A DNA stretch of 40,479 bases from Prevotella sp. (GTDB taxonomy: Bacteria; Bacteroidota; Bacteroidia; Bacteroidales; Bacteroidaceae). Within the stretch, counting starts at the first letter, position 1; every line of letters begins with the position of its first letter. Positions 22,926 to 26,421 of this stretch are shown piece after piece. The stretch covers positions 1 through 40,479 of the forward strand of contig JAFVGN010000046.1 in NCBI GenBank assembly GCA_017474925.1, written 5' to 3'. The translations under genes were made by a program, and so were the position numbers. Below the pieces are notes generated by a model. That model saw nothing but the letters and a program-made list of their open reading frames with translations. It was not told the origin of the DNA and did not search any database.

Positions 22926-23663
22926 TCAGCGTTTACGACGCTTCTTGGCAGGGGCTGGGGCTTTCTTGGGCTCTTCCTTGGGGGCGAAGGGGTCTTTCAC
23001 AATGGTTGCACGCAAGATGCGGACGTCAGTAAGCGGACGGTTGTAACGGTCAGTTGGCATCTGTTGGATGCGTTCAACAACGTCCATGCCTTCCAACACC
23101 TCACCAAACACGGTATACTGTCCGTCCAGATGGGGCGTGCCGCCAATGGTTTTGTAGGTTTCAATCATCTCGGGAGCCAACTTAACGCGCCCTTGTGTCA
23201 TGGAGTCGATATACTCCTGTGCACGGGCTATCTGCGCATCGTCGAGCACCTTGCCCCAGACAATGTAGAACTGGCAGGCACCCGAGCGCAGCTCCGGGTT
23301 GATGTCGTCAGGTTCACGAGCAGCAGCCACAACGCCACGACGATGGTACAACTCCGGCAGGCGGAACTCAGGCTCCAAGGTATAATCCAGCTCACCAGAA
23401 CCCAGGCGCTGACCCGGCTGTGCATATTTACTGGTCAAGTCGCCACCCTGAATCATAAAGTCCTTGACGACACGATGGAAGAGCAGCGAGTCGTAAACAT
23501 GCAGGCGATTCAGCTTCAGAAAATTGTCACGATGCTGCGGTGTCTCATTATAGAGAGCAATACGAATGTTCCCCTCTGTGGTTTCCAACAAAACTTCGGC
23601 ACGCTCGTCCTGGGCAAAAAGGACCATTGGCAACAAAGCCAGTAAAAAAAATATTCTCCTCAT
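22926..23663 (-). CDS. Exported cyclophilin-type peptidyl-prolyl isomerase
   Basis: The 245-residue protein has a signal peptide (about 1-17, cut near LFAQ) and a cyclophilin domain with [14 protein letters not shown] and a downstream [17 protein letters not shown]. Between them lies an insert of about 40 residues (about 145-185), and the C-terminus is a basic tail ([13 protein letters not shown]). It is predicted to speed proline isomerisation during folding of exported proteins. Its start overlaps the queF stop by 4 bases, so it is translated in the queuosine operon although it has no known link to that pathway. Confidence 0.88.
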
Positions 23664-24121
23664 AGTATTTGGTGGTTCAAAAGTCGTTCTTCAGCCATTT
23701 TCTCATATTTGGTACCAGGCATGCCATAATTGGCATAGGGATAGATGCTGATGCCTCCACGTGGCACAAAGAGCCCCACGACCTCAATATACTTGGGCTG
23801 CATCAGTCTGACAAGGTCTTTCATAATGATGTTGACACAGTCCTCGTGGAAATCGCCATGGTTTCGAAACGAGAAGAGATATAGTTTCAAGCTCTTCGAC
23901 TCAACCATCTTACGGTCAGGGATATAGAGAATCTTGATTTCCGCAAAATCGGGCTGACCAGTAATGGGACATAGCGAAGTAAACTCTGGGCAGTTGAACT
24001 GCACCCAGTAGTCGTTGTCGGGATGTTTGTTCTCAAAAGCCTCCAGAACCTCTGGGGCATAAGTGGTCTTGTATTCCGTTTTCTTGCCAAGAGCCTGCAA
24101 ATTGTCTTGTTCGCGATTCAT
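23660..24121 (-). CDS. queF: NADPH-dependent 7-cyano-7-deazaguanine (preQ0) reductase
   Basis: QueF reduces the nitrile of preQ0 to the aminomethyl group of preQ1, a queuosine tRNA precursor. The 153-residue protein is the short (type I) form, with [14 protein letters not shown] containing catalytic Cys51 and Asp58, and the family signature [24 protein letters not shown] region (Glu74 onward). It lies 11 bases after yhhQ and overlaps the cyclophilin gene by 4 bases. The product, preQ1, is the likely ligand of the leader RNA upstream of yhhQ, giving feedback control of the operon. Confidence 0.95.
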
Positions 24122-24132
24122 CGATAGTGTAA

Positions 24133-24828
24133 TTATATTTTCAGGATGTTAAAAATATTGTAGTTGATATCCTTGTCGTAAACGTCCTCGTGGTCGTGTT
24201 GCTTTGTAAACTCGACAACGCGTATGGTGACTGGCAGCACAAGAATTTCATAGAGCGTCTTAAACAACACCTGCGAAATCATCAGGGACGGCATCTCCTC
24301 CCAAGGAATGACTCCTCCCAAGGCCAAGGGAAAGAAGATGATGGAGTCGACACTCTCACCTCCTATCGTGCTGAGTACTGCCCGCACGGAGAAATTGTGG
24401 CCTTCGGACGACAGTTTCATGCGAGACATGATGTAGGCATTGATGAAGGAGCCCAGGATAAAGGCAATAAACGATGCCAGCGTGATGCGTGGAGCCAATC
24501 CGAAAATGACATGAAAACCTTCGTCACCATTCCAATAAGGTGCACCAGGTATCCAATCGGCTATCGCCCCGAAAATGACAAAGACGAAGTTCATGGCGAA
24601 ACCCATCCAAATGAGCATACGCGTCCGCTCGTAACCCCACACTTCACAGACAACATCATTGATGATATAGCTGACAGGAAATACAACTATACCTGCTGTC
24701 AAATTCACAGGTCCGAAGGAATACTGCTTTGTTTCTAAAACGTTTGCCGTAATCAGGCAGACGCAAAACAGCGTGCCGAAAAGCATAAAAAGCACGCTGA
24801 CTTTTTTATTGTTCTCTTGTTCCATCAT
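24133..24828 (-). CDS. yhhQ: Queuosine precursor transporter (YhhQ/DUF165)
   Basis: The 231-residue membrane protein of the YhhQ/VUT family has about six helices and the conserved segments [45 protein letters not shown] and [14 protein letters not shown]. The family imports queuosine precursors such as preQ0 or preQ1. Two adjacent ATGs (24826-24828 and 24823-24825) could start it. The first lies only two bases after a structure that matches a preQ1-I aptamer, so ligand binding could hide the start. The operon continues with queF and a cyclophilin gene. Confidence 0.92.
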
Positions 24829-24830
24829 AT

Positions 24831-24886
24831 TCTTGTTTTTTTAAAGAGGGTTCGTCACTTCTGAAAAGGACTACGCAAGCACCTCT
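24831..24886 (-). promoter_or_regulatory. Candidate preQ1-I riboswitch with inserted hairpin
   Basis: Read on the minus strand, AGAGG (24886-24882) pairs with CCTCT (24849-24845) as P1. CTTG (24879-24876) pairs with CAAG (24835-24832) as the pseudoknot P2. The 3' part TTAAAAAAACAAGA has the same length as that of the Thermoanaerobacter aptamer and differs at two bases. The equivalents of U6 (24881), G11 (24876), C15 (24850), A29 (24836) and C30 (24835), the ligand-site residues, are all present. Instead of the single U12 there is a 23-nt insert (24875-24853) that can fold into a hairpin closed by CGT/ACG. The start codon follows directly, implying translational control. Confidence 0.75.
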
Positions 24887-24902
24887 GCCTAATAAGCGGC
24901 TG

Positions 24903-24910
24903 CAAAGGTA
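24903..24910 (-). promoter_or_regulatory. -7 promoter box (TACCTTTG) for yhhQ-queF
   Basis: Matches TAnnTTTG on the minus strand. Transcription would begin about 24897, so the leader of about 70 nt includes the whole candidate riboswitch. Confidence 0.65.
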
Positions 24911-24920
24911 CGAAATAAAA

Positions 24921-24943
24921 CTTGAAAAAAAGCTCTTTTCAAG
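24921..24943 (-). repeat. Inverted repeat CTTGAAAA..TTTTCAAG upstream of the yhhQ promoter
   Basis: Eight-base arms around a 7-base centre lie 10 bases upstream of the -7 box, in an AT-rich stretch. It could be an operator or simply an upstream element; no known site is recognised. Confidence 0.35.
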
Positions 24944-24964
24944 TATTTTTTCAGAAGAGGTAAG

Positions 24965-25005
24965 AAAAAAGCACAGGAAACCACTTCGTTTCTGGTTTCC
25001 TGTGC
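24965..25005 (-). terminator. Rho-independent terminator of the glycogen operon
   Basis: On the minus strand a perfect 13-bp stem (GCACAGGAAACCA with its complement) and 9-base loop is followed by TTTTTTC. It lies 28 bases after the GH57 stop codon and separates the glycogen operon from yhhQ. Confidence 0.9.
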
Positions 25006-25032
25006 GTTGTTATTAAAAGTGTCCTCTATTGA

Positions 25033-26421
25033 CTACTCTTCAGAAGCTTTCTTGGCAGAAGCCTTCTTGGATGCAGCTTTTTTCGGAGCAGCCTTCTTGG
25101 CAGGCTTCTTGTCCTCCTCATCAGGTTCGTATTTTGAAAGACGTGCCATCAGACGCGTAATCTCAGCATCTTTCATCTCAATCTCGTCGCCTTGGTTACG
25201 AATCGTTGTCAGCAAGGCGTTGAGCTCGTCGTTCTCAATCTCCTGTGGATAGAGCGCATTGACCCTGTTGATGAAGTCGCCCAAAATATTCATGTAGTTG
25301 GTGAAGGCATCGAACGGTCCGCTATAGATGCCACGATCCAGACCTACATTAGAGGGCTTCGTGGTCATGAAGCGGAAGTTGTTGGAAGCCTGCAGATAGT
25401 CCCAGTCCTGATTGATGCGCGGGTCGTCGGCAATGCGCAGACGGTCAGCAACAGAATAGAGCTTGTTGAAAGCCTCACGCTGCATCGCGTTACCCAACCA
25501 GCATGAGCAGTCGCGTTCCTCGTCAACCCAGCTCAGGGTATCAGGCACATCAAGGTTGCCAACGCTCTTCACCTTCATGCAGATTTCAGTAGGCGTGGAG
25601 AACGTGATGCCCTTCTCCTTGGCACAGGCAGGAAGAGCCTTCAGGAAGTCAAGGATATTTGAGCTGAGGGGCTGGGCAATACCCAGGGCAGAGAGCTCCA
25701 TGAAAATATTGATGATCTGCTCCTCTTCCGGCAGGCGGGCAATACGGTCAATATAAGTATCGGCAAACAAGGGATAGCCTTCCCAGTCTGCGTTGTTGAA
25801 GCGCAATGAGATGTCGTCAGACAGCACCACATCGCGTAACAACAGCTTCAGGTTGGGAGCTATGTTGCAGTTATAGACATAGTGAGGCGACTTCCATCCC
25901 AATACGTGCTTGGCACCCTCGGTCAACATACCTTTAAAGCCCATGGCAGCAATCTGGCCGCCAATGTCGTCAGAGTAGATGAGCGAAGAGTTGCGGGCTA
26001 CTGTCGGCTTCCTGCCAAACAGTTCCTCAATCTTGGCACATTGCTTCTTCACGTCAAGGGCAAAGGTCTCTTCGTTAGCCAGCGAAGACAAACCATGAGA
26101 GTAAGGCTCGGCCAGGAACTCCACGCAACCCGTCTGGTTCAGCTCCTGCAACTTCTCGAGCACCTGGGGAGCATGCATCTCAAGCTGCTCAATACCTGTA
26201 CCGCTGAGGGAGAAGGCAACCTTGAAAAACTCGCCATGCTCGCGAATCATGTCGCCAATGGCATTCAATGCAGGCATGTAGCTGCGATTGGCGATATCGG
26301 TGATGCTACGCTCGTTCTCGTAGTCATCATAGTAATAATGATCGGTGCCGATATCGAAGAAACGATAACGCTTCAGATGGATAATCTGATGTATCTCGAA
26401 ATATAAACAAATTGTTTTCAT
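25033..26421 (-). CDS. GH57 alpha-amylase-like protein lacking catalytic residues
   Basis: The 462-residue protein belongs to the GH57 alpha-amylase branch: FEIHQIIH near the start, FLAEPYSHGLSSL (about 102-114) and GFKGMLTEGAKHVLGW. The nucleophile motif, RNTEL in active relatives, reads RNSSL with Ser146 for Glu. The acid/base motif FMDYETFGEH reads FMELSALGIA with Glu242 for Asp. It is probably not a standard hydrolase. GH57 alpha-amylase-like homologues lacking such residues are a known group. The C-terminus is a Lys/Ala-rich, histone-H1-like tail (about 430-462). It is last in the operon with debranching enzyme and glycosyltransferase, so a glucan-binding or regulatory role in glycogen metabolism is plausible. 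Confidence 0.82.
   Translation of the reverse strand: MKTICLYFEIHQIIHLKRYRFFDIGTDHYYYDDYENERSITDIANRSYMPALNAIGDMIREHGEFFKVAFSLSGTGIEQLEMHAPQVLEKLQELNQTGCVEFLAEPYSHGLSSLANEETFALDVKKQCAKIEELFGRKPTVARNSSLIYSDDIGGQIAAMGFKGMLTEGAKHVLGWKSPHYVYNCNIAPNLKLLLRDVVLSDDISLRFNNADWEGYPLFADTYIDRIARLPEEEQIINIFMELSALGIAQPLSSNILDFLKALPACAKEKGITFSTPTEICMKVKSVGNLDVPDTLSWVDEERDCSCWLGNAMQREAFNKLYSVADRLRIADDPRINQDWDYLQASNNFRFMTTKPSNVGLDRGIYSGPFDAFTNYMNILGDFINRVNALYPQEIENDELNALLTTIRNQGDEIEMKDAEITRLMARLSKYEPDEEDKKPAKKAAPKKAASKKASAKKASEE

Follow-up and report, generated by a model that had tools for sequence, protein, structure and literature searches.

The window, 40,479 nucleotides that comprise positions 1 to 40,479 of contig JAFVGN010000046.1 of a Prevotella sp. 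assembly, carries on its minus strand the gene of a queuosine precursor transporter, yhhQ, followed by queF, and in the yhhQ-queF leader an aptamer core which spans positions 24886-24832 of the same strand. From 5' to 3' the parts of this leader follow one another in the order P1, U, G, P2, L2, P1', L3, P2', AAT and ATG ATG. They are given below with the genes and the putative promoter element.

24133..24828, minus strand: yhhQ, queuosine precursor transporter (TIGR00697, 106.5 bits against a cut-off of 50.95)
23660..24121, minus strand: queF, preQ1 synthase (TIGR03139, 174.4 bits against a cut-off of 86.9)
24903..24910, minus strand: -7 box TACCTTTG of the Bacteroidota type, 16 nt upstream of P1, with a predicted transcript start at about 24896
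24886-24882, minus strand: P1 5' strand AGAGG, pairing with 24849-24845, with covariation in relatives
24881, minus strand: equivalent of the ligand-site residue U6, demanded by the strict parser of relatives' leaders
24879-24876, minus strand: P2 5' strand CTTG of the pseudoknot, pairing with 24835-24832, with covariation in relatives
24875-24850, minus strand: expanded loop L2, 26 nt, ending in AAC, the specificity C at 24850 included
24875-24853, minus strand: insert within L2, 23 nt
24871-24854, minus strand: inserted hairpin GUCCUUU-UCA-GAAG(U)GAC, 7 bp with one bulged U, predicted by folding and from homologous stems
24852-24851, minus strand: equivalents of A13-A14, preceding the specificity C at 24850
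24849-24845, minus strand: P1 3' strand CCTCT, with AC just before it, the type II signature (PMC11625349, excerpt)
24844-24836, minus strand: A-rich loop L3, TTAAAAAAA
24835-24832, minus strand: P2 3' strand CAAG, at -7 to -4 of the first ATG

P1 of the window has 5 bp and is closed at the pocket by G24882-C24849; the consensus of the -7 box in the Bacteroidota is TAnnTTTG. A reading of this DNA made earlier from the letters alone (the sequence-only reading) had described a complete preQ1-I core with a 5-bp P1, a CTTG/CAAG pseudoknot, an A-rich L3 and the ligand-site residues, and all of these parts were found where it had placed them. The 23 nt that it saw inserted at 24853-24875 were borne out in length and position, and its view that the genes downstream fit the ligand is upheld by the profile matches of YhhQ and QueF. 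It erred on the start codon, which it had put two bases past the aptamer: the first ATG of yhhQ, at 24828, lies 3 nt past CAAG, and judging from relatives the second, at 24825, may be the actual start. We read the leader as a riboswitch of preQ1-I type II through which, in this SD-less bacterium, preQ1 would repress translation of the yhhQ-queF mRNA, and which would carry a peripheral stem in L2; we give this reading a probability of about nine in ten. The adjoining protein of 462 aa (25033-26421, minus strand) has no NCBIfam match and ends in a lysine/alanine-rich C-terminal tail, KKPAKKAAPKKAASKKASAKK; we take it to be glycosidase-like.

Conservation of the aptamer core within the genus

YhhQ was detected in 101 of 150 genomes of the genus, and 99 yhhQ loci (30 + 69) were taken for comparison, four weak YhhQ fragments (G027, two in G034, G041) being left out. 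The strict parser saw the core in 87 of the 99 leaders; two of these were spurious (L066, L105) and were dropped from later counts, leaving 85 leaders, and in L025 and L014 P2 parses awkwardly. The true aptamer of L066 was recovered by model R1, which was built from 13 short-L2 relatives with the window sequence absent from training. At E up to 0.5 this model matches 90 of the 99 loci, its 13 training loci counted and with L021 matched by the tail only and L024 and L062 in part only. Together with L097, seen by the parser, the aptamer is thus recognisable in 91 of the 99 leaders, and neither R1 nor the parser found it in the remaining eight (L018, L030, L032, L035, L100, L103, L105, L107). Two leaders, L034 and L036, have lost both strands of P2 and kept P1 and the A-rich tail, which is perhaps decay or perhaps an altered switch.

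The two helices of the core are both conserved and covarying in the relatives, where the sequence-only reading had proposed to look for them. In the R1 alignment, which has 88 distinct rows and was fitted to P1 and not to P2, 98.5% of the P1 and P2 cells are paired, and 62 cells are changed on both sides, compared with a mean of 14.0 after shuffling. The covariation score of P1 and P2 is 0.184 as against 0.075 in shuffles, none of 500 shuffles was as high, and slid versions gave at most 0.091. The window itself has A-U at the P1 pair 24884/24847, where 74 of 77 rows have G-C, and P2 is found elsewhere as ATTG/CAAT, CTAG/CTAG and CTAAG/CTTAG. The promoter motif TAnnTTTG stands upstream in 61 of the 85 parsed leaders, in 36 of these at 14-20 nt before the aptamer.

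The expanded second loop and its stem

L2 is 4-7 nt long in 69 of the 87 parser rows and expanded to 17-42 nt in 17 of the 99 leaders (16 by the parser, and L021). The proposal that the insert of the window folds into a stem-loop stood as far as homologous stems are paired in relatives, but the window's own stem is not significant alone: the insert is no more paired than shuffled sequence (p 0.22 and 0.27), and its longest contiguous stem has 3 bp (p 0.62). Support for the candidate hairpin of the window comes from its relatives, not from its own sequence. Among the 17 inserts of the genus, five are paired at p < 0.05 when taken singly (dinucleotide shuffles), and the combined p against mononucleotide shuffles is 7e-6 if the inserts are treated as independent.

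A pattern scan of one genome for each of 84,980 species yielded 89 stretches. In 16 of them, flagged for this, the matched CTTG lacks a preceding P1 5' strand; L195 is one of these, and L120, L145 and L160, flagged too, were retained as a valid register is also given. By reading, nine of the 16 are aptamers with a short L2 and an upstream CTTG that matched by chance (L121, L123, L131, L135, L148, L153, L173, L178, L188), the matches L110, L159 (Urinicoccus) and L177 (Sinanaerobacter) were judged by reading to be chance, and L132, whose match ends 50 bases before the stretch end, was left out of the reading. The 75 expanded-L2 loci of the scan are labelled in their records as Prevotella (36), Prevotellaceae (21), Bacteroidales (14), Bacteroidaceae (2) and other (2); many of the records name ruminant samples, and some are not marked as MAG (Prevotella sp. 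ne3005, tc2-28, tf2-5 and khp7, for example).

From the genus loci and the species scan 91 loci with 67 distinct expanded L2s were collected, distinct sequences being counted since species overlap between the two sources. A stem of at least 4 bp lies at the same place in 41 of the 52 distinct inserts of 15-30 nt, with 6.9 expected from mononucleotide shuffles (G-U allowed, position fixed), the mean stem length is 4.5 bp as compared to 2.4 bp in shuffles, and each of the first four stem pairs occurs in at least three Watson-Crick types, these counts not being independent because the inserts are related. In alignment A5 (31 rows) P1 and P2 are nearly invariant, and the stem is changed on both sides at four of its five pairs. 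Stem cells with a change on both sides number 34 against 17.7 in shuffles, the covariation score of the stem is 0.157 against 0.077, and for neither value was any of 500 shuffles as high; the number of stem pairs with a double change, 4, is not above that in shuffles (mean 4.2). At fixed columns 70.3% of the A5 stem cells pair, a value kept low by register shifts in some rows. Among 15 longer inserts, of 34-41 nt, the minimum-energy fold has two hairpins in 14, as calculated without a control. The flanks of the 52 inserts recur as well, with CGAA or CGAAA on the 5' side in 22 and GAC at the end of the 3' flank in 33. The inserted stem hence stays paired while its sequence changes, and the insert may be a tolerated, structurally maintained peripheral stem which might tune folding.

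Why, then, would some leaders carry such a stem? It could be a neutral gain of sequence at a solvent-exposed spot, paired because a floppy loop of 20-40 nt would be harmful, and we consider this an even bet. The inserts vary in sequence, in length (17-42 nt) and in the number of hairpins, L2 is short in close relatives (L014, for instance), and its state changes on the YhhQ tree, a quick tree of 144 rows with many open forks and long branches. On this tree a single clade of all 56 hairpin rows apart from the 78 short rows is rejected (AU p 6.9e-42), which means that there was more than one gain or loss of the L2 state, or an exchange of leaders. A purely neutral origin does not sit well with the pairing, which is strongly maintained across inserts, nor with the recurring flanks, which exceed neutral order even if common descent explains them in part. 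Alternatively, the stem could be a module that tunes affinity, kinetics or Mg dependence and so marks a functional subtype. The terminal loops and stem lengths vary among the inserts, which argues against such a role, and we would sooner wager against it, even though the stem is present on separate branches of the YhhQ tree and also upstream of queC as a second gene, and the CGAA and GGAC flanks could stack as sheared G-A pairs. Long and short L2s in close relatives offer ready-made pairs for folding studies.

Ligand and level of control

Gene context bears on the ligand. In 107 of 158 YhhQ loci, drawn from two sources which overlap in species, queF begins within about 200 nt downstream as counted from the BLAST match start; for the others it lies elsewhere or in opposite direction (38) or is not in the stretch (12), or the stretch is too short (1). 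In eight genomes of the genus with no detected YhhQ, some of them incomplete, the aptamer was found by reading directly before queF (L240-L247), and the downstream proteins of L240 and L246, which were tested, are QueF. In another Bacteroidales lineage 12 loci were read in which the aptamer precedes queC, L2 being expanded in ten and short in two (two of the proteins tested), and G111 and G071 have an additional preQ1-I-like leader, with P2 CTAAG/CTTAG, directly before queD (L251, L252; 31.9 and 32 bits with RF00522; the L251 protein tested). Since the contexts of the aptamer are restricted to queuosine genes, its ligand is likely to be preQ1; control of yhhQ by a preQ1 riboswitch is already known (PMC5372724 and PMC10622847, excerpts). 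It seems improbable to us that this aptamer, real as it is, senses preQ0 or another 7-deazaguanine better than preQ1. Such a preference would suit the control of yhhQ, the E. coli relative of which takes part in preQ0 transport (PMC5372724, excerpt), and in relatives that of queC, the maker of preQ0. However, the preQ1 pocket retains C15, U6 and the A-rich L3, and queF, the preQ1 synthase gene, is in the same unit or directly controlled. For the type II aptamer of Tte the preference of preQ1 over preQ0 is only 17-fold (PMC10622847, excerpt).

For the preQ1-responsive switch that we favour, we propose the following mode of action. Transcription would begin some 10 nt upstream of the aptamer and the start codon would lie 3-6 nt behind it, so that the yhhQ leader would be little more than aptamer. 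At low preQ1, P1 and the inserted stem would form and the A-rich tail, made up of L3 and CAAG, would be open as a landing site for the ribosome; the predicted fold of the window without the pseudoknot leaves this tail open. Once held by C15 between P1 and P2, preQ1 would let the tail zip into the pseudoknot, upon which initiation at yhhQ, and by coupling also at queF, would fall, the outcome being feedback on the import and synthesis of preQ1. The 23-nt insert would sit in L2 where the backbone crosses between P2 and P1, and we propose that its stem stays closed in order for A14-C15 to be able to reach the pocket.

Several features of the leaders bear on the level of control. The next ATG follows P2' at 1-8 nt in 86 of 87 parser rows, in 65 of them at 3 or 4 nt, and of the 85 leaders 67 have A at -3, 76 at -6, 66 at -12 and 54 at -13. 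An A at any of the positions -3, -6, -12 and -13 promotes initiation in Flavobacterium (PMC6847099, excerpt), and in Prevotella bryantii there is no functional SD interaction and leader structure lowers expression (PMC3155529, excerpt). The A-rich L3 and P2' can thus double as initiation region, which would be hidden by the ligand-closed pseudoknot; the A positions are consistent with this double use and no proof of it, because leaders rich in A are usual in the phylum and an A-rich L3 belongs to the class in any case. That control is exerted instead on transcription, by pausing or early termination, is very improbable, with no terminator-like site in 24700-25050 and no room for one, the ATG lying 3 nt past P2, an argument which weighs less against pausing alone; the Bsu preQ1-I riboswitch does act on transcription and pausing (PMC11625349, excerpt).

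Detection, distribution and relation to known preQ1 classes

No Rfam family reaches its cut-off anywhere in the window. At a permissive threshold RF00522 aligns over the entire leader aptamer with 22 bits, below its cut-off of 39, and a search of the whole genome with RF00522, the model that the sequence-only reading had suggested, places the best match in the 2.28 Mb genome at this leader (E 0.039; runner-up 14.6 bits; 11 matches at E up to 10), weak matches at E up to 10 being present also in 14 of 14 control genomes. R1 finds the aptamer with 38.1 bits (E 1.8e-6) as the only match of the genome at E up to 0.01. A pattern of the core, drawn up post hoc and with CTTG/CAAG kept constant, has a single match in the window and none in 200 mononucleotide shuffles of one strand. 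Folded as a single sequence the window aptamer is unremarkable (z 0.49 and 0.37), and this folding is not counted as support because it gives no signal. A chance resemblance, to which the low RF00522 score and the unremarkable folding would be congenial, is already refuted by the R1 match and the conservation and covariation of P1 and P2 in relatives, and the aptamer ranks first in its own genome; the type II core in the yhhQ-queF leader is not chance, and it is a structural variant of a known preQ1-I class, not a new class.

The suspicion that standard models miss this form proved correct in that none of the 150 genus genomes passes RF00522 at its cut-off, so that the class is overlooked in a major gut genus; 23 genomes have a match at E up to 0.05, and the top score at a yhhQ leader is 29.6 bits. 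The insert is not the sole cause, though, because short-L2 forms are missed too: of 20 loci of this kind RF00522 picks up only 2 at E up to 1 (25.7 and 25 bits). Four of six places fetched for weak RF00522 matches (L250, L253, L254, L255) are not like preQ1 leaders. With R1 at E up to 0.01, 97 of 150 genus genomes match, of which G001 at the least is probably a chance case; its match and the second one in G059 look like chance, as no gene is seen behind them (L249, L248). Across the family R1 matches 62 of 251 genomes in 12 of 30 genera, and across the phylum 5 of 395 genomes, a count that is no measure of absence because R1 is tuned to its own family. By reading, 25 of the 33 loci from the family and phylum searches precede a YhhQ-like protein, one of these 25, L227, belonging to another family of the order. 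The sequence-only reading had not known the class to be common in Bacteroidetes; it is not new there, types I and II being reported from several phyla including Bacteroidota in a review (PMC11625349, excerpt).

With preQ1-I type II (Tte, Bsu, RF00522) the window aptamer shares the H-type order P1-L1-P2-L2-P1'-L3-P2', the AC before the P1 3' strand, U6, the A-rich L3 and the queuosine genes downstream. It differs in that L2 has 26 nt with a stem and not 4 nt as in Tte or 6 nt as in Bsu (PMC3905878, excerpt), that no SD is involved, and that it scores below the RF00522 cut-off; we file it as a type II variant because its L2 of 26 nt is not the short one of 4-6 nt. Type III, the type of E. coli yhhQ, likewise controls yhhQ and acts at the start codon region, but has UU after P1 and an AAGG SD in P2, whereas here U-G and CAAG followed by AAT are found, and it is almost confined to Pseudomonadota (PMC11625349, excerpt). 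In type I the P1 5' strand is followed by UU and the P1 3' strand preceded by UC, where the window aptamer has UG and AC. The preQ1-II and preQ1-III classes, also larger preQ1 pseudoknots and termed HLout (PMC11625349, excerpt), have different cores, and no match to their Rfam models was obtained, be it at cut-off in the window or at E up to 10 in the leader.

In the passages of openly licensed PubMed Central papers that the search covered, we found neither hairpins in L2 or L3 of preQ1-I nor preQ1-I in Prevotella. Prevotella and its relatives could conceivably hold a fourth preQ1-I subtype, an H-type pseudoknot whose L2 (in rare cases L3) bears one or two hairpins as an auxiliary domain to tune an SD-free switch, and this in a lineage where tandem and triple aptamers are found as well. 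We put this forward tentatively and would not yet lean towards it; if true, peripheral domains would have been acquired on several occasions in what is the smallest class of riboswitches. PreQ1-I aptamers serve as a model of the minimal RNA sensor, and dozens of natural versions with an L2 stem, and a few with one in L3, reveal where this fold can take up additional domains. Riboswitches that control translation have been predicted in SD-less bacteria (PMC11625349, excerpt), and the genus offers many SD-less candidates with an A-rich initiation region overlapping L3 and P2.

Of 398 genus genomes, 5 carry tandem preQ1-I aptamers ahead of yhhQ, and in two of the five the array is triple (three copies in L068/L231 and L230; two in L061/L235, L233 and L237), with none in a reversed-pattern control; the scan matches in three of eight genomes (G989, G091, G901) were chance by reading. 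A 2022 survey lists PreQ1-I among the classes not found in tandem (PMC9481103, excerpt). In the tandem and triple arrays only the last copy overlaps the start region. A hairpin in L3 (of the TTTCG... type) in place of one in L2 is found in 3 of 200 genus genomes (L024/L256, L062/L257, L246/L258); L246 sits before queF, and L021 has hairpins in both L3 and L2. Finally, L017 and L027, and similarly L011, have an upstream copy of GGGGTACTT, with a possible hairpin with GAGTACC, before the real aptamer, and the copy in L017 and L027 is perhaps a degenerate tandem copy.
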